64,000 nt of DNA from Rufibacter sp. XAAS-G3-1 (GTDB lineage: Bacteria; Bacteroidota; Bacteroidia; Cytophagales; Hymenobacteraceae). Position numbers and translations under genes: made by a program. The notes beneath the pieces are model-generated. The model was not told the origin of the DNA. It ran no database searches and worked only from the letters and a program-made list of their open reading frames with translations. Positions 43,997-52,496 of this stretch are shown here, piece after piece. Position 1 is the stretch's first letter, and each line of letters opens with the position of its first letter. The DNA lies in the NCBI RefSeq assembly GCF_013623775.1, contig NZ_JABFAM010000011.1, positions 1 through 64,000 on the forward strand, written 5' to 3'.

Positions 43997-44000
43997 TTAA

Positions 44001-44030
44001 CTGCCGTTTTCTTGAAAATAGCCTAGAAAC
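44001..44030. repeat. Family C palindrome, half copy
   Basis: Only the inner GCCGTTTTCTT and AAAATAGCCTAGAAAC remain; the left outer arm is missing. Confidence 0.45.
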
Positions 44031-44059
44031 CCCTCCCTGTGGCGAGGGGTTTCTTTTTT
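44027..44059 (+). terminator. Intrinsic terminator of the DUF4136 gene
   Basis: AAACCCCTC and GAGGGGTTT arms, 8-nt loop, followed by C and a run of seven T. Confidence 0.85.
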
Positions 44060-44087
44060 TGTAGAGGCTTTATTTACGCTCATCCCC

Positions 44088-44250
44088 TTCTCCCCTTTGT
44101 CATCTGGAAGGATCTTGTAGGCGAACGGTAATCATGCCTGTTCCCTACTGATGATACTTTCTCCTTGTTTTACAAAAGAAAACGCCTTCCATAGAATAGA
44201 GGCCTTTCTAGTTCGCCCACAAGATCCTTTCAGGATGACAGAGAAGGGAG
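44088..44250. repeat. Family D large imperfect inverted repeat
   Basis: Arms of about 38 nt (near 44088-44126 and 44211-44250) contain GTCATC(C)TG.AAGGATCTTGT and GGCGAAC; the 85-nt centre is unpaired. The sequence motif resembles intergenic GTCATCCTGA...AAGGATCT repeats common in Bacteroidota and related groups. Only copy here. Confidence 0.65.
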
Positions 44251-44368
44251 AGTGAGAGAGGGAAAAAAGGTAGAAGCGAGAGAGAAGAAGGGTAGAAGCA
44301 GAATGAGATTAAGCCAGAAAGCAGAACAGCGGTGACACAAAGTGTCAAAAAAGTAGTCAGCCAGAATA

Positions 44369-44399
44369 TTTTTGAGGTGTTTTCTGAAAAATAGGCTTA
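44369..44399. repeat. Family C palindrome interrupted by the B element
   Basis: TTTTTGAGGTGTTTTCTGAA and AAATAGGCTTA; the missing end TTAAAAC is found after the family B element (44561-44567). Confidence 0.6.
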
Positions 44400-44565
44400 G
44401 AGCTTGTTTAAATTTCATCTTTGCGCTACAAACGACCATAAAAAGAACCTGCGTTCACCTTTTTCTCGCACCGTAGCGCTGCTACGCTGCTCAAAAAACG
44501 CTTCCGCAGAACCTTTCTCTGGCCGTTTTCGCCAGCAAACCTCAAATTTAAACAAGCTCTTAAAA
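44398..44565. repeat. Family B MITE-like element, long form (about 167 bp)
   Basis: Ends TAGAGCTTGTTTAAATTTC and AAATTTAAACAAGCTCTTA are an excellent inverted pair. Compared with the copy at 5416 it has an extra segment of about 58 bp containing GTAGCGCTGCTACGCTGCTC (itself palindromic). Confidence 0.8.
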
Positions 44566-44639
44566 CAGAACTAGGTCTACTCCCATTCTCCTGTATGCAT
44601 ACGATCCCTAAACATTAACCTGACCTCCCGCAAAACTGC

Positions 44640-44870
44640 TCATGGTTCCCGGCAATTCTGGAGACTCGCTTCATCCGGTGGCACGAGACTAGAGTCGCGC
44701 GCCAGTACTTTCTACCTGTTTGCTTCCGTAATGCCGCCTGCTCCAAAGACCTCGTAGCGGGCGCAGCTCCTTCAAGTGTCTGCGCCAATACCGTTTATAG
44801 CCCGTTTTCCGCAAAACAGGCCTATAACGTGGAAGCCTTTAAGGTCTCCAAGGCCTCACAGATTTAAGTC
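44640..44870 (+). repeat. Family A composite repeat, worn
   Basis: GGTTCCCGGCAATTCTGGAG, GCACGAGACTAGAGTCGCGC, CGCCAGTACTTTCTACCTG, CTCCAAAGACCTCGTAGCGG, a family C palindrome at 44791-44829 and a worn AGGTCTCCAAGGCCTCACAG block, which has moved to the end. No gene was seen in the whole 44.0-45.0 kb gap. Confidence 0.75.
44791..44829. repeat. Family C palindrome
   Basis: CCGTTTATAGCCCGTTTTCC and AAAACAGGCCTATAACG. Confidence 0.8.
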
Positions 44871-44916
44871 AACTCAGTAGGGTGAGGCCCAAAACGTACT
44901 TCCCAGAAATGCTGCC

Positions 44917-44954
44917 AAACAAAAGAGCCACCTTTCTAGGTGGCTCTTTTGTTT
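44917..44954 (-). terminator. Strong hairpin terminator of the T9SS-type operon
   Basis: Perfect 17-bp arms AAACAAAAGAGCCACCT and AGGTGGCTCTTTTGTTT, loop TTCT, just beyond the OmpA-protein stop. Confidence 0.9.
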
Positions 44955-44980
44955 CACTTCTTGAGAAGGTTTATCTAGTC

Positions 44981-46966
44981 TTACTTGATCTTGAATTCGG
45001 TTCTTCTGTTCATCTGGTGCTCGTCTTCGGTACATTCTACCCCGTCTGCACAGCGGTTTTTCAGCTTGGTTTCTCCGTAGCCTTTCCAGGTGAGCCGGTT
45101 GCGGGCTATGCCTTGGCTTACTAGATATTCCACTGCTGACTGGGCCCGGCGCTCAGAGAGAATCTGGTTGTAGCCGTGGCCTTCGCGGCTATCAGTGTGT
45201 GAACCTAGTTCAATCTTTATGCTGGGGTTATCCTTCAGCATGCGTACCAGTTTGTCCAGTTCCAAAGCGGCATCTGGGCGGATATTCCATTTATCCAGAT
45301 CATAGTAGATGTTCTCCACGGCAATGGTCTGCTCCCGCTGGCTTTTGTCAAAGATGAGCGTGACGCGGGTGGTATCTGCCAGGTTTACCGTATCAATGGC
45401 TACTAGGGCAGATTGAGTCAAGAAGCCGAATTTCTCGCCTTTCAGATCATACGTAGAGCCTTTCATCACGCCAAACTTGTATTCGCCGTTGCGGTCTGAG
45501 AAGGCCACGGTAGAGTCTGCAGTGTTCTGCGGAGTCAATTTCAGGCGGACATCGGCCAGCGGCTGATTGATGCTGTTCTTGCCTTTCACCTGCACCCGTT
45601 CTAAGGTAGTTACCAGCAGAACAGCGTTGCTCAACAGCTTAAAGGAGTAGATGTCATCTGTGCCGTTGTTGCTGTCGCGGTTAGAAGACAGGTAACCCGC
45701 CAGGCTATTTCCGGCTCCCCGCATGAACACCATCCCGAAATCATCTTTAGGAGAGTTAATAGGTGTGCGCAGATTTTCCGGCGTAGTCCAGGTGGTACGG
45801 CTGCCCTTCGCTTTGAACACATCCAAGCCTCCCAGCCCGGGGTGCATGTCTGAGGAGAAATACAGGTTACCGGCTTGGTCAAAGCCCGGGAACATTTCTT
45901 TGCCGCTGGTATTGATGGTGTTACCGGCATTTACCGGCTGACTCCAGCTTCCGTCAGACTGAAATTCTGAGAAGTAAATGTCCGTTTCGCCGTAGCCACC
46001 GGGCTGGTCAGACACAAAGTACAGCACTTGCCCGTTGGGCGAAATGGCCGGATGGCCTACGCTATATTCGTCTACCTTGTTGTATTTGAAGGGTTTTACT
46101 CCTGCCCAGGCAGAACCGTTCCGCCGCGCCGAATAAATCTCCAGCCGGTTCACGTACTCGTTCTCAATCGGTTCCACTACCCAACTGGTAGGATCCATGT
46201 TGGCATTCTCCGGCACTTTCTTCACCATTTTGGTGCGGGTAAAGTACAGCGTAGTATTACCGGAGTCTAGCACCGCGGGGCCGTCATGGTACACCGAGTT
46301 TAAGGTGGCACTGGCTAGGGTTGGCGGTTGCCAGGTACTGTCTTGGTTGCGTTGGGCATAGAACATTTGCAGATACGGACGACCCGTCCAGCCATAAGCG
46401 CCGGCATCTATGGCTTTGGCGTTGCCCATGCTACCACCCCGGTCTGAGGTGAACAAGATGCCGTCTTCATAAACCGTTGGGCTGAAGTCTGAATTTCCGG
46501 AGTTGATCTGGGTTTCATTGACGACAATGGCGGTGGGTGGCTCCTCCAGCAATTTCAAGGCTGCATCAGTTGCCTGGGCCTTCGCGTGGGCTTTGGCGGC
46601 TTCGGCGGGTACTTTAATGGCGTACTCCTGGTATTGGGTTTTGGCCTCAAAGTACTTCCCGTTGCTTCTCAGCGCCTCAGCGTAGTAATAGGTATTGATA
46701 GGATCAGCTTCGGGCATGGCCACCACTTTAGCGTACCACTGCTCTGCCTGCACGGTACGGCCGGTGAGGCGGTAAGAATCTGCCAGCCGCTGGGCACCTT
46801 GCAAATCTGGGGTCTTTTTGGCAAAAACCTCCTGAAACTCCTCTATGGCGAGGGCATAATCATAGTTCTCATACAGCCTGTCGGCTTTACGAGTGGTTTG
46901 GCAACCGCTCAAGGCTACACTACCGGCAATGAAGGAAAGTAAAAGAGATTTGTATAATTTATACAT
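44981..46966 (-). CDS. OmpA/PD40/TPR lipoprotein (PorE-like)
   Basis: 661 residues. Signal peptide with lipobox ALSGC (Cys22); TPR-like helices (about 28-115); PD40/WD40-type beta-propeller blades (about 155-440: FSPTVYEDGILFTSDRGG, HPAISPNGQVLYFVSDQPGG, MFPGFDQAGNLYFSSDMHPG); a carboxypeptidase-regulatory-like fold (about 470-540); and a C-terminal OmpA peptidoglycan-binding domain (about 550-661: IELGSHTDSREGHGYNQILS). This architecture is that of Bacteroidota PorE-like proteins that associate with PorP/SprF. Third gene of the operon; the PorP/SprF stop is 18 bp upstream. Likely anchors the complex to peptidoglycan (inferred). Confidence 0.9.
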   Translation of the reverse strand: MYKLYKSLLLSFIAGSVALSGCQTTRKADRLYENYDYALAIEEFQEVFAKKTPDLQGAQRLADSYRLTGRTVQAEQWYAKVVAMPEADPINTYYYAEALRSNGKYFEAKTQYQEYAIKVPAEAAKAHAKAQATDAALKLLEEPPTAIVVNETQINSGNSDFSPTVYEDGILFTSDRGGSMGNAKAIDAGAYGWTGRPYLQMFYAQRNQDSTWQPPTLASATLNSVYHDGPAVLDSGNTTLYFTRTKMVKKVPENANMDPTSWVVEPIENEYVNRLEIYSARRNGSAWAGVKPFKYNKVDEYSVGHPAISPNGQVLYFVSDQPGGYGETDIYFSEFQSDGSWSQPVNAGNTINTSGKEMFPGFDQAGNLYFSSDMHPGLGGLDVFKAKGSRTTWTTPENLRTPINSPKDDFGMVFMRGAGNSLAGYLSSNRDSNNGTDDIYSFKLLSNAVLLVTTLERVQVKGKNSINQPLADVRLKLTPQNTADSTVAFSDRNGEYKFGVMKGSTYDLKGEKFGFLTQSALVAIDTVNLADTTRVTLIFDKSQREQTIAVENIYYDLDKWNIRPDAALELDKLVRMLKDNPSIKIELGSHTDSREGHGYNQILSERRAQSAVEYLVSQGIARNRLTWKGYGETKLKNRCADGVECTEDEHQMNRRTEFKIK

Positions 46967-46984
46967 AGATGCGTCTGGTTAGAA

Positions 46985-47938
46985 TTAGAAATACCGGGGG
47001 GTCACCATTTTGGTCTCTTCCTTTTTCAGGAAACTGTATCCAACAGATATTTCATGGGTGCTCAAATCATTGAGGTTGCTGTGCAGCGTAAAGTCATAGG
47101 CGTAGCCTAAGCGTAGCCGTTTGGTCACATACAATTCTGCTATGGCTACCAGGGCATCTTTGGAGCTTAGGCCTTTGCCTTCAAAATCATTCTTGAAGAT
47201 GTTCATGGCCGTACGGTAACTGCCTCCCAGCCAAATGCGCTCCCCAAACAGGAAAAAAGCGTTAAAATCTACGTTGGTAGGGCCATCAAAATTCTCTTTG
47301 AGCATGATGCTGGGTTTCACCTTGATATTCCGGCTGATGTTTGCCACATACCCCACGTTCAGGAAGTAATGGCGCTCCGGGTCATAGTTGATGTCCTTGT
47401 CAATGCCCAATAGATCAGTCACCGACACACCGGCGTAGAACCGCTCTGTATGGAAGAAGATACCGGCTTTCAGGCTAGGGCTCCAAGTAGTTTCTTTCTG
47501 GGCATTTACCACGGCAGGGTCGTCCTGGTCGTTCCCGGTAACCAGCTTGGTGCCGTCCACCGCAAAGTGCGACACCCCGGCGGCCAACCCGAAGGAAAGC
47601 ACACCGGTTTCACTTACCGGCACTTTCACGGCGGCGTCCACCTCTATGTTCTTGCGGTTTTGAGCGAAGATTTCATCTCTGGTGGCATGAAAACCCAGCC
47701 CTATCCGGCTGTTGTTGGTGAGCCCGTCTATGCTGAAGGACTGGGTATTGGGCGACCCTTGCAGGCCCACCCACTGGGTACGGTGGAAGGCATTGATCGT
47801 GAGTGTTTCCTTACTCCCGGCGTACGCCGGATTGATCACCAGTTGGTTAAAAATGTACTGCGAAAATTGAGCCCTGTGCTGCGCCCAACTGCTCACCGCG
47901 CCTAGCATGGCTATACTTATGATTAAAAGTCTTTTCAT
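46985..47938 (-). CDS. PorP/SprF family type IX secretion membrane protein
   Basis: 317 residues with a signal peptide (MKRLLIISIAMLGAVSSWA). QHRAQFSQYIFNQLVINPAYAGSKETL is the PorP/SprF signature; a barrel pattern follows, ending in the conserved STHEISVGYSFLKKE region. Family members form outer-membrane barrels that present type B T9SS substrates to the cell surface, each usually encoded next to its own substrate. Here it sits between the CTD-bearing protein (34 bp upstream) and the OmpA lipoprotein, which fits that rule. Confidence 0.95.
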   Translation of the reverse strand: MKRLLIISIAMLGAVSSWAQHRAQFSQYIFNQLVINPAYAGSKETLTINAFHRTQWVGLQGSPNTQSFSIDGLTNNSRIGLGFHATRDEIFAQNRKNIEVDAAVKVPVSETGVLSFGLAAGVSHFAVDGTKLVTGNDQDDPAVVNAQKETTWSPSLKAGIFFHTERFYAGVSVTDLLGIDKDINYDPERHYFLNVGYVANISRNIKVKPSIMLKENFDGPTNVDFNAFFLFGERIWLGGSYRTAMNIFKNDFEGKGLSSKDALVAIAELYVTKRLRLGYAYDFTLHSNLNDLSTHEISVGYSFLKKEETKMVTPRYF

Positions 47939-47972
47939 TTCTGCTTGAAATTTATTTTTGGAATGTCTCTGC

Positions 47973-50222
47973 TTAGCGAACTACCTGTACCGGGCCTCTG
48001 AACACCTGGTCTTTGCCATCACAGCCTCTCACGCGCAGCACATAGAAATAAGTGGCTTCTTCCAGGCCGCTGGCCATCCAGTTATTCTTATAGCCTTTGG
48101 TTTTGTAGATCTCATTGCCCCAACGGTTGTAAATGGTCAGGTCATTGTCTGGGAAGTTCAGCAGGTTCCGGATTACCAGCGCATCGTTGATGCCGTCGCT
48201 GTTAGGGCTGAATACCGTGGGAACCACAATCTCAGTACCCGCATCAGAAGCTCTTACTTCGGCCGAGGCCAAGCCACTAGAGCAGGTGCTGGCATTGCTG
48301 GCGCTCACGGCAAGGGTGCCCACCGCATTCAAGTCAGAGGATTTAAGCGTCACAGAGGTGCCCGTAGCGGTGGTGCTGTTGTCTGCAAACGTGAAGCCAG
48401 CAGGCGCTGTCCAGGTATACACCAACCCGGCAACAGGGTTAGAGATAGAGTAAGCCAGACCTGTACACGGGCCACTGTTATTGATAATGACCGGGGTAAT
48501 AGGGGCCGGATTTGGGACAACATCTTGCGTAGAAGCCGTAGCGGTACCGCAGGCGTTCGTTGCCACTACCGTTACTCTACCAGGGCCTGTTCCGGCTTTT
48601 ACCTGTACCTGCGTACCAGTAGCGGCACTTGTTCTTTCCCAGCCGGTTCCGGTCACGCTCCAAGTGTACACCACGCCTTCTTCCGGTTGCGCTATGCTGT
48701 ACTGGTACGTAAGCGCAGAACATAGTCCGGTTACCTGTGGAGTGGTAATGACCGGAGTAGCAGGTGCCGCTCTCACAATCAATTCTACCGGGAAAGCCAC
48801 ACTGTTCTGGCAATTACCCAAAGCCACCGCCACTACCGTAATAGAATACGTTCCAGGCAAAGTGGTAGCGCCTGCTTTGATTGTAAAGGCAGAAAGTGAT
48901 TGAGATTCTATGACCAGGCCGCTGGTAGGCGGCACTACTATGGCCAGGCTGGTGACCCCAAAAGAGACGTTGCTCACCGCGTAGGTTACAGAACCGTTGG
49001 TACATACTTCGCGGGCTCCTACCACATTGGGCAGTTCTGGCCGCACACAGATGGTAGCGTCATCAGACTCATCGCCGCCGCCAATAACGGCGGTGTTCGT
49101 GATCAGACCCAGCACCGTGGTTTTGGCGGTAATGCGTAAGGTGGCCGTTTGGTTAGCGTTTAGCGAGCCGATGGCCCAAACTCCCGTGGTGGCGTTGTAG
49201 GTTCCCTGGCTTGCTTCTGTGGGAGGCAATAATGATAGCCCAGCCGGCAATTTATCTTCTACGGTTACATTGGTGGCGTCTCCCGGCCCGGTGTTGGTGA
49301 CCTGTATGGTATACATCACGTTCTCCCCAATAATGAAGTTGGTGCCATTGGCTGACTTCGAGATTCTTAAAGTAGCATTGACCGGAGGATTATTTCCGGG
49401 AGTACCATCATCTCCATCACCACCGTCGTCATTGCCGTCTCCGTCATCATCCCCCTCATCGCCGCCATTGTTGTCACCGGTACCTGTCGTAACTGGCTCT
49501 GGCAGAGAGATGTTGTTATTGTTAAGTGCTATGTCTCCCGCAGCCGAAAGAACCCGGCCTACCAGACTGGTACCCAGGCTAAGCAGCGCATTGTTCTGCA
49601 CCACGAAGTTCCCGCTTAGATTGGAAGGTGCTCCCACCACTCCGCCTGTGCCAACGGTTATGTTTCCGGTTACCCGAAAGAAGATGTTGTTGACGCTGGC
49701 ATTGAAAACATTGATGGCAGAGCCTGGATCAATGACCAGATCGCCATTTACCTGAATGATGAAAATGGAGTTGGGGTTGTTCTGCCCATCAAACTTAAGG
49801 CGGCCGCTAATGCGGGCATTGCCATTGTAGTTGTAGACACCCCGGTTAAGCGTGGTGCCCCTCACCGCCGCATCAGAGGCAGTGAATCCGCCGCCCAGCG
49901 TTTGGCCGGTTAAATCCTGGGTAGAAGTGAATTGGCCCAGTTCATTGTACACCCGTACCACGTCTGTTTTGGCTTTCGCCGCCGCCGTAGTACCGCGCTC
50001 AATATCACCTACTACAATACCCGTGGTAAAACCGGTAACCAGATTACCGGGCGAAGTACCTAGATCACCATACACCACACTACTACCGGTACTATTCACA
50101 GCAGTAGTGCCTAACACCGCGAAACCACGCGCCTCTCCAAGGGAAGGAGGGTTTAGGGTTTGGGCACTTATGGAAAGAGAGACAGCAAACAATGCTGCAA
50201 TGAGATGTAAAATTTTCTTCAT
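47973..50222 (-). CDS. Ice-binding-like (DUF3494) T9SS type B cargo protein
   Basis: 749 residues. Signal peptide (to about 20); DUF3494-type beta-solenoid (about 25-240: FAVLGTTAVNSTGSSVVYGD, NPNSIFIIQVNGDLVIDPGS, VNNIFFRVTGNITVGTGG, GRVLSAAGDIALNN); an Asp/Gly-rich acidic linker (about 247-278); a DUF11 repeat (ISKSANGTNFIIGENVMYTI...); Ig/PKD-like domains (about 395-655); and a type B gliding-motility C-terminal domain (FSPNSDGINDALVIRNLLNF, IYNRWGNEIYKTKGYKNNW) that is the T9SS export signal. Likely a secreted surface adhesin or ice-binding protein; activity is inferred from the domain only. First gene of the three-gene operon, followed by PorP/SprF. Confidence 0.9.
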   Translation of the reverse strand: MKKILHLIAALFAVSLSISAQTLNPPSLGEARGFAVLGTTAVNSTGSSVVYGDLGTSPGNLVTGFTTGIVVGDIERGTTAAAKAKTDVVRVYNELGQFTSTQDLTGQTLGGGFTASDAAVRGTTLNRGVYNYNGNARISGRLKFDGQNNPNSIFIIQVNGDLVIDPGSAINVFNASVNNIFFRVTGNITVGTGGVVGAPSNLSGNFVVQNNALLSLGTSLVGRVLSAAGDIALNNNNISLPEPVTTGTGDNNGGDEGDDDGDGNDDGGDGDDGTPGNNPPVNATLRISKSANGTNFIIGENVMYTIQVTNTGPGDATNVTVEDKLPAGLSLLPPTEASQGTYNATTGVWAIGSLNANQTATLRITAKTTVLGLITNTAVIGGGDESDDATICVRPELPNVVGAREVCTNGSVTYAVSNVSFGVTSLAIVVPPTSGLVIESQSLSAFTIKAGATTLPGTYSITVVAVALGNCQNSVAFPVELIVRAAPATPVITTPQVTGLCSALTYQYSIAQPEEGVVYTWSVTGTGWERTSAATGTQVQVKAGTGPGRVTVVATNACGTATASTQDVVPNPAPITPVIINNSGPCTGLAYSISNPVAGLVYTWTAPAGFTFADNSTTATGTSVTLKSSDLNAVGTLAVSASNASTCSSGLASAEVRASDAGTEIVVPTVFSPNSDGINDALVIRNLLNFPDNDLTIYNRWGNEIYKTKGYKNNWMASGLEEATYFYVLRVRGCDGKDQVFRGPVQVVR

Positions 50223-50613: not shown

Positions 50614-50675
50614 AAACAGCCCTTAAAACAAGAAGCTCCGCCAATTGGCGGAGCTTCTTGTTTTAAGGGCTGTTT
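50614..50675 (-). terminator. Perfect 31-bp palindrome, terminator of lipA
   Basis: Arms 50614-50644 and 50645-50675 with no loop; the outer part AAACAGCCCTTAAAAC is the family C half, the inner part GAAGCTCCGCCAA is unique. It would stop lipA transcription and insulate the cargo operon. Confidence 0.9.
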
Positions 50676-51650: not shown

Positions 51651-52424
51651 TCAACGGCGACGCCCGTAATACAAGGTAAGGTAAACAGACATGAATACGT
51701 TGCGGGTAGGGGCATCCGGAATAATGGTGATATCTCCGGCCAGGGCTTCCAGCAGCATACCCACTTCAATACCGGTCACGCTCTCCATGTAACGGCCGTA
51801 CTCAAAGGATACACCCGCCTTCACGTTGGCGCCTACTCTGAAACTTGGCTCACTTAAGCCTTTGAAAACACCCGGAGCCCCCACAATCAACCCTTCATTG
51901 GTATGGATATTGGGGTCATACTGCTCTGTACTGATGAGTACGGGGCCCGACAGATAATATTGCTGCGTTCTGGGATCTAACACATAGTTGCTGCGGTCAT
52001 ACTCAATAAAGTAGGGGGCCATGATGCCCAAAGACGGGCCAGCCGCCACTATCCCGTTCACCTGTACGCCAGATTCAGCCGCTTTCCTGAAAAAAGTGTA
52101 TTCCCGGCCGTACTGCGGTCTCAGGACAAACAGATAATTGTTTTTGCCATTGATGAAGGAGGCTCCGTTCTGCAGGTTTTGCAGGCGGGTTTCTTTGGGG
52201 TGTTTGACCTCTACGCCTTCCAGGGCCCAGAACTGGTACCATTTTCCACCCATATGGTACACCTGTTTGATCATGGCTCCGCCCAGAAGCCCACCGTTGG
52301 AGTTAAAGTTGAGCCCGTAGGTGAACTCCCTGGAATAGCCTTCCTCTTCTTCAGCGGTTTGGGCAAACGCCAACCCAACAGGAAGAAAGCATATGGTCAC
52401 AAGCACCAATAGAAATCTGCGCAC
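51651..52424 (-). CDS. Putative outer-membrane beta-barrel protein
   Basis: 257 residues from GTG 52424, which starts a clean signal peptide (MRRFLLVLVTICFLPVGLAFA). The frame is open to a TTG at 52478, but that would put 18 polar residues in front of the signal peptide and leave only 18 bp to the divergent osmC-like gene, so the GTG is preferred. The mature part (YGLNFNSNGGLLGGAMIKQV...; VFMSVYLTLYYGRRR at the end) has the alternating pattern and final aromatic strand of a small barrel. No family recognised. Function unknown. Confidence 0.7.
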   Translation of the reverse strand: MRRFLLVLVTICFLPVGLAFAQTAEEEEGYSREFTYGLNFNSNGGLLGGAMIKQVYHMGGKWYQFWALEGVEVKHPKETRLQNLQNGASFINGKNNYLFVLRPQYGREYTFFRKAAESGVQVNGIVAAGPSLGIMAPYFIEYDRSNYVLDPRTQQYYLSGPVLISTEQYDPNIHTNEGLIVGAPGVFKGLSEPSFRVGANVKAGVSFEYGRYMESVTGIEVGMLLEALAGDITIIPDAPTRNVFMSVYLTLYYGRRR

Positions 52425-52496
52425 AGAGCAAAAGGCTAAGTTTTGTTTAAAAGTAAGTAACTTTACAAGCACCTGCAAATCTTAAATAGTAAGAAA

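Follow-up and report, generated by a model that had tools for sequence, protein, structure and literature searches.

In one of the closest described systems, that of P. gingivalis, the type B protein PG1035 is part of a complex with PorE and PorP. The type B protein sits on the PorP barrel and the barrel on PorE, a peptidoglycan-binding lipoprotein with TPR, propeller, carboxypeptidase-regulatory and OmpA domains (PMC9143113). It has been proposed that type B proteins whose PorP is partnered by PorE are fixed to the wall and non-mobile, and that SprB-like ones are mobile (PMC9143113). In F. johnsoniae, cognate cargo-shuttle pairs, several with a porE-like neighbor, are represented by SprB-SprF and by six porP-like genes located beside porE-like genes (PMC9143113, PMC12618676). 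Type B shuttles of this organism are cargo-specific and some type B C-terminal domains (CTDs) give static foci only (PMC12618676), while movement of SprF requires Cys residues in its C-tail that bond GldK (PMC12635249).

DUF3494 (PF11999) is the fold family of type 1 ice-binding proteins (IBPs), such as AnpIBP (7bwx), EfcIBP (6eio), FfIBP (4nu2) and IBPv (5uyt). The ice-binding surface of this fold, the B-face, was mapped in AnpIBP, where six strand segments each contribute the outward residues at positions 1, 2, 4 and 6 (PMC7277481). SfIBP_1 (6bg8), a proposed ice adhesin of Shewanella frigidimarina, combines DUF3494 with Ig-like domains and is proposed to be cell-tethered. To our knowledge, SfIBP_1 stands outside any T9SS, PorP or PorE module, and Shewanella has no type IX secretion system (T9SS).

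In this study, we analyzed a three-gene unit in a 64,000-nucleotide stretch of DNA (the window) from Rufibacter sp. XAAS-G3-1. It resembles the P. gingivalis complex, here known from genes, and the F. johnsoniae pairs. However, a single PorP serves P. gingivalis (PMC9143113), whereas Rufibacter has a dedicated paralogue set that shares an operon with a DUF3494-headed cargo, and we saw no DUF3494 head in the descriptions of F. johnsoniae type B pairs (PMC9143113, PMC12618676). Unlike SprF, with its CxC tail and lack of a PorE neighbor, the window PorP is Cys-free and lies next to a PorE-like gene. The type 1 IBPs listed above share the fold of the cargo head but have an ice face rich in Thr, Ser, Ala and Gly (T/S/A/G), belong to another clade and lack a PorP/PorE module. 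The parts (type B cargo, PorP, PorE-like protein, DUF3494) are known, but we found no open description of their combination, and a search of the open literature (subscription papers were outside its scope) found no paper with both "DUF3494" and "type IX secretion". We consider it probable, at roughly 0.6, that the operon encodes a T9SS type B adhesin, static and tethered to peptidoglycan, whose head is a re-used DUF3494 solenoid.

Organization and products of the three-gene unit

The original prediction, made from the sequence of the window, described three genes with gaps of 34 and 18 bp that encode a cargo with DUF3494, an acidic linker, DUF11, Ig-like domains and a type B signal, followed by the cargo's own PorP/SprF and a PorE-like anchor. 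The positions of the open reading frames and both gaps were reproduced exactly, with all three genes on one strand (Table 1).

Table 1. Features of the unit in window coordinates
Feature	Position	Strand	Evidence
Cargo, T9SS type B surface protein, 749 aa	47973..50222	-	ORF; Pfam/NCBIfam profiles
Sec signal peptide of cargo (MKKILHLIAALFAVSLSISA)	50163..50222	-	Read by eye from sequence (putative)
DUF3494 (PF11999) beta-solenoid head, residues ~26-241	49500..50147	-	Pfam; AF2 model; structure superposition
Acidic D/G/N-rich linker, residues ~246-283, length differs between species	49374..49487	-	Sequence
DUF11 domain (stalk)	49062..49370	-	Pfam
PKD-like/Ig-like repeats (stalk)	48243..49040	-	PF19408, 3 stretches; beta-rich in full-length model
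Type B C-terminal secretion/targeting domain (CHU_C, TIGR04131)	47976..48227	-	Pfam; NCBIfam
PorP/SprF-family outer-membrane barrel, 317 aa, shuttle/anchor of cargo	46985..47938	-	TIGR03519; PF11751
PorP C-tail TPRYF	46988..47002	-	Sequence
PorE-like lipoprotein, 661 aa (TPR, propeller, CarboxypepD_reg-like, OmpA), lipobox Cys22	44981..46966	-	ORF; profiles
OmpA-type peptidoglycan-binding domain, residues 554-642	45041..45307	-	PF00691, 60.4 bits
20-bp perfect hairpin between lipA and cargo, probable lipA terminator and 5' border of the unit	50621..50668	.	Sequence

No terminator-like sites were found in the 34-bp and 18-bp gaps, and a GC-rich hairpin is also present after lipA in orthologues. 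The hairpin and the terminator-free gaps fit, but do not prove, a single transcript that would start in the 474-bp lipA-cargo interval. In most orthologues the hairpin has a T-run; in the window it has none on the lipA strand. A search of the window against Rfam gave no matches. Nearly 1 kb between the PorE-like gene and a convergent DUF4136 gene (43997-44980) is free of long ORFs. Upstream of lipA, positions 51651-52478 (- strand) encode a protein of unknown family, with no Pfam family over cut-off, that is kept at this position in 16/16 Rufibacter genomes.

All predicted parts of the cargo were recovered by profiles or from sequence. Pfam places PF11999 at residues 36-238 (98.4 bits against a cut-off of 28.7), DUF11 at residues 285-387 (92.7 bits) and CHU_C (PF13585) at residues 666-737 (81 bits). 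The predicted Ig-like domains correspond to PKD_6 repeats (70.2 bits in three stretches). The NCBIfam model TIGR04131 scores the CTD at 36.3 bits, just over its cut-off of 35. With a type B CTD recognized by profile and an N-terminal signal peptide by eye, the protein has the make-up of a T9SS type B cargo.

For the DUF3494 part, AlphaFold2 modeling from 19 sequences gave pLDDT 92.9 and pTM 0.91. The model superposes by VIA-align on 7bwx, 6eio, 5uyt and 4nu2 over ~200 residues with Z 30-33, rmsd 1.1-1.4 A and 26-34% identity, and on SfIBP_1 with Z 28, whereas the best unrelated chain has a Z of only 13.6. For 7bwx, 6eio and 5uyt, Z is about 33 and rmsd 1.1-1.3 A. Foldseek concurs (6eio, E 1e-17). 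Since the model superposes on solved IBPs and both methods agree, the possibility that this region folds as something else can be set aside, and profile and model together place it in the DUF3494/PF11999 family of discontinuous beta-solenoids with a bracing helix. The full-length cargo model is of low confidence (pLDDT 65) and was used just for the beta content of the stalk.

The second gene, 34 bp from the cargo, encodes a PorP/SprF shuttle-family protein with 250 bits to TIGR03519 (cut-off 90.6) and 234.6 bits to PF11751, which supports the predicted PorP/SprF of the cargo. A sequence search found no PorP relatives of solved structure. The protein ends in KMVTPRYF and contains no cysteine at all, which sets it apart from the gliding (SprF) subgroup with Cys-X-Cys in the periplasmic C-tail.

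The third gene carries a lipobox (LSGC22, read by eye), and its domains follow the order expected of PorE: TPR, PD40 propeller, carboxypeptidase-regulatory-like and OmpA. The propeller and OmpA are over cut-off and TPR and CarboxypepD_reg are below their own. The top PDB match of the OmpA domain is 6top, an OmpA family protein (E 9e-27). The best NCBIfam models are CHU_0125_OmpA (491.6 bits, cut-off 620) and T9SS_PorE (386.4 bits, curated cut-off 600). Because it is under both cut-offs, we name it only PorE-like: the predicted anchor stands as to architecture and lipobox and falls short of the curated family.

The unit had also been called a complete surface-display module. It is a conserved cargo, PorP and PorE-like set, but it needs the core T9SS, which is encoded elsewhere in the genome; SprA (2444 bits) is present, as is GldK, with GldL- and GldM-like ORFs beside it that were assigned by position and eye.

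Distribution of the unit and the PorP tail

The unit adjoins lipA in all 16 Rufibacter species; since gene content and order are identical throughout, the three-gene set is not due to chance. On its other side lies gcvP in 15 species, and in the remaining one the contig ends before. Named Rufibacter relatives show 72-76% head identity to the window cargo. At this locus the cargo has ~730-750 aa, but 1620-2013 aa in 5/16 species. The long forms retain head and CTD and expand the middle, by DUF11 repeats in the one scanned.

Each of the 16 genomes has at least two DUF3494 genes. A second module of cargo, PorP and PorE-like genes was found on the window contig (C72:129-138 kb), ~85 kb from the window unit. 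Of the 208 profile positions, its DUF3494 head (L033:7422-12587, - strand; ~132-138 kb of the window contig) covers only 77-208. The N-terminal third of this head is lost or unrecognizable; even so, the module has been kept. In one Rufibacter, the second-module cargo is a giant DUF3494-headed type B protein of 4781 aa, with PorP and PorE-like genes after it (L081:3771-18116).

Within Hymenobacteraceae, the triad occurs in 17/17 sampled loci of groups g2-g4. Group g3, regarded as Pontibacter-like from its resemblance to the P. burrus locus L155, has the lipA-linked module in 6/6 and the second module in 6/6 sampled genomes. In group g6 of this family, DUF3494 occurs outside any triad, and the one protein scanned carries a type A CTD. 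Across the phylum, DUF3494 was detected in 47/395 genomes, and none of 20 sampled DUF3494 loci outside the family had a recognized type B CTD or a neighboring PorP. This distribution points to an old trait of one Hymenobacteraceae branch rather than a recent gain by a cold strain. A different pairing was observed at many of the loci outside the family (L178-L184, L189, L191-L194), where a C-terminal DUF3494, part of Big_5 Ig-repeat proteins in both cases scanned, is followed by an OMP-barrel/OmpA gene.

The C-terminus of PorP was also compared. All Rufibacter module-A PorPs end in (T/S)PRYF, and tails within the family are looser (TPQYF, TPRNL and TVRYF were also seen). Among 60 PorPs of other Bacteroidota genomes, a PR(F/Y)F tail was present in 24 of the 26 whose immediate downstream neighbor is a PorE-like gene and in 2 of the 34 without, whereas a tail Cys was present in 2/26 and 18/34, respectively. 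The core PorP of the window genome, encoded with gldK-gldL-gldM and without an adjacent porE, ends in TPRYFF, as expected if the tail reads PorE and not the neighborhood. The pattern, read over loci L227-L286 and L003-L011, is phylogenetically clustered. The PorP trees hold too few supported independent contrasts, 2 in the quick and 4 in the careful analysis, for a sign test to reach significance. Because the labels are clustered and the supported independent switches too few, we treat the association as a lead and not as co-evolution.

The B-face and phylogeny of the DUF3494 head

B-face positions were assigned through sequence alignment to AnpIBP, not from coordinates, and module heads were compared with six solved-structure IBPs and six canonical Bacteroidota IBPs. 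T/S/A/G residues make up 72% of the face in both IBP sets and 41-53% in the modules. Charged residues rise from 9% (solved) and 8% (canonical) to 17-27%, and Asn/Asp from 10% and 11% to 26-34%. For module-A heads alone, the values are 52% T/S/A/G, 34% Asn/Asp and 17% charged; single solved IBPs also have up to 17% charged residues. Column 2 changes from A/G/S in IBPs to N/D in the modules. In the window head, 12 of 24 outward positions are T/S/A/G, four are charged and nine are Asn/Asp. Face conservation was also considered as evidence. The Rufibacter face is less conserved than the rest of the domain, but 18 canonical Bacteroidota IBPs used as a control behave alike, and conservation therefore carries no weight.

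In a tree of 70 DUF3494 domains, all 41 triad-borne domains fall on one side of a single branch, whose SH-aLRT of 92, from a short search, is under the program's star threshold. The six solved IBPs, the canonical IBPs and type A DUF3494s of the same family fall on the other. A third DUF3494 protein, of 424 aa (L079:3839-5113), is present in R. glacialis, a glacier species; it has a type A CTD and an IBP-like face and groups with the solved IBPs; in the two type A proteins read, the face is 69% T/S/A/G and 6% charged.

These data bear on the main alternative, in which the head binds ice and tethers the cell in the manner of SfIBP_1 or MpIBP, through T9SS type B anchoring. The predicted fold is practically identical to that of active IBPs, proposed ice adhesins likewise combine DUF3494 with Ig-like domains (PMC9957290), Thr still makes up 47% of face column 4 in short module-A cargos (44% in solved IBPs), and Rufibacter includes cold-derived names (R. 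glacialis, R. psychrotolerans). On the other hand, the module face departs in composition from the solved IBPs, its clade is separate from all those compared, and the module is present in every Rufibacter species and in genera whose cultured members include isolates from the Taklimakan, a hot desert (PMC11505249). Moreover, R. glacialis has its additional type A protein with an IBP-like face. Face composition, the separate clade, the R. glacialis protein and the hot-desert members together make ice binding by the module head unlikely. Of the two roles originally suggested for the solenoid, cold or desiccation adaptation is not supported, given this genus-wide and wider occurrence, the departing face and the separate clade, and re-use as an adhesin, with a putative ligand, is favored.

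A proposed static adhesin tethered to the wall

The module is directly observed in its genes, domains, model fold, synteny, clade, face composition and missing tail Cys. If its products behave like their homologues, export of the cargo would begin with Sec and continue through the T9SS translocon by way of the type B CTD. The PorP/SprF barrel encoded alongside would collect the cargo and stay bound as its outer-membrane anchor, and the PorE-like lipoprotein would tie the barrel to peptidoglycan. The N-terminal DUF3494 beta-solenoid would then be an exposed head on a DUF11/PKD stalk of species-variable length. Static behavior is suggested by the absent tail Cys and the PorE-like neighbor. Since the clade has drifted from the T/S/A/G-rich ice face, the head most likely binds something other than ice, and a surface or polymer such as matrix polysaccharide, a mineral or another cell would be the likeliest ligand; that half of the window head face is still T/S/A/G is a point against this, as is the charge of up to 17% on the face of single solved IBPs.

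Alternatively, the head may have no external ligand and serve as a cap or spacer that protects or stabilizes the PorP/PorE assembly or a surface layer. PG1035 has been speculated to cap PorP (PMC9143113), and the second module persists although its head matches only part of the profile (positions 77-208 of 208); however, long and variable cargos (~730 to 4781 aa) suit reach and not capping, and we regard this role as improbable. Even less probable is a gliding adhesin in which PorP rides the Gld track with the head as a SprB-like moving foot: SprA and GldK/L/M are in the genome and SprB, another type B cargo, likewise has its own PorP/SprF, but the window PorP has no cysteine, whereas SprF requires its CxC tail (PMC12635249), and the PorE-like wall anchor is co-encoded here, whereas none adjoins sprB/sprF (PMC9143113).

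Beyond the tethered adhesin itself, a broader and tentative proposal is that the Hymenobacteraceae DUF3494 clade, vertically inherited, gave up ice for the role of a static type B adhesin head, and that the last PorP residues may set static versus gliding behavior, (S/T)PR(F/Y)F docking a PorE-type anchor and a Cys tail bonding GldK. PorE-partnered shuttles have been proposed to be static, and the tail pattern opens this proposal to a point-mutation test; the module is also a clean natural example of the cargo-PorP-PorE triad. The "ice-binding" annotation routinely given to DUF3494 is probably misleading in this case, because a branch of Hymenobacteraceae, a family with members in soil, desert and fresh water, carries DUF3494 as a predicted wall-anchored surface head with an altered face.
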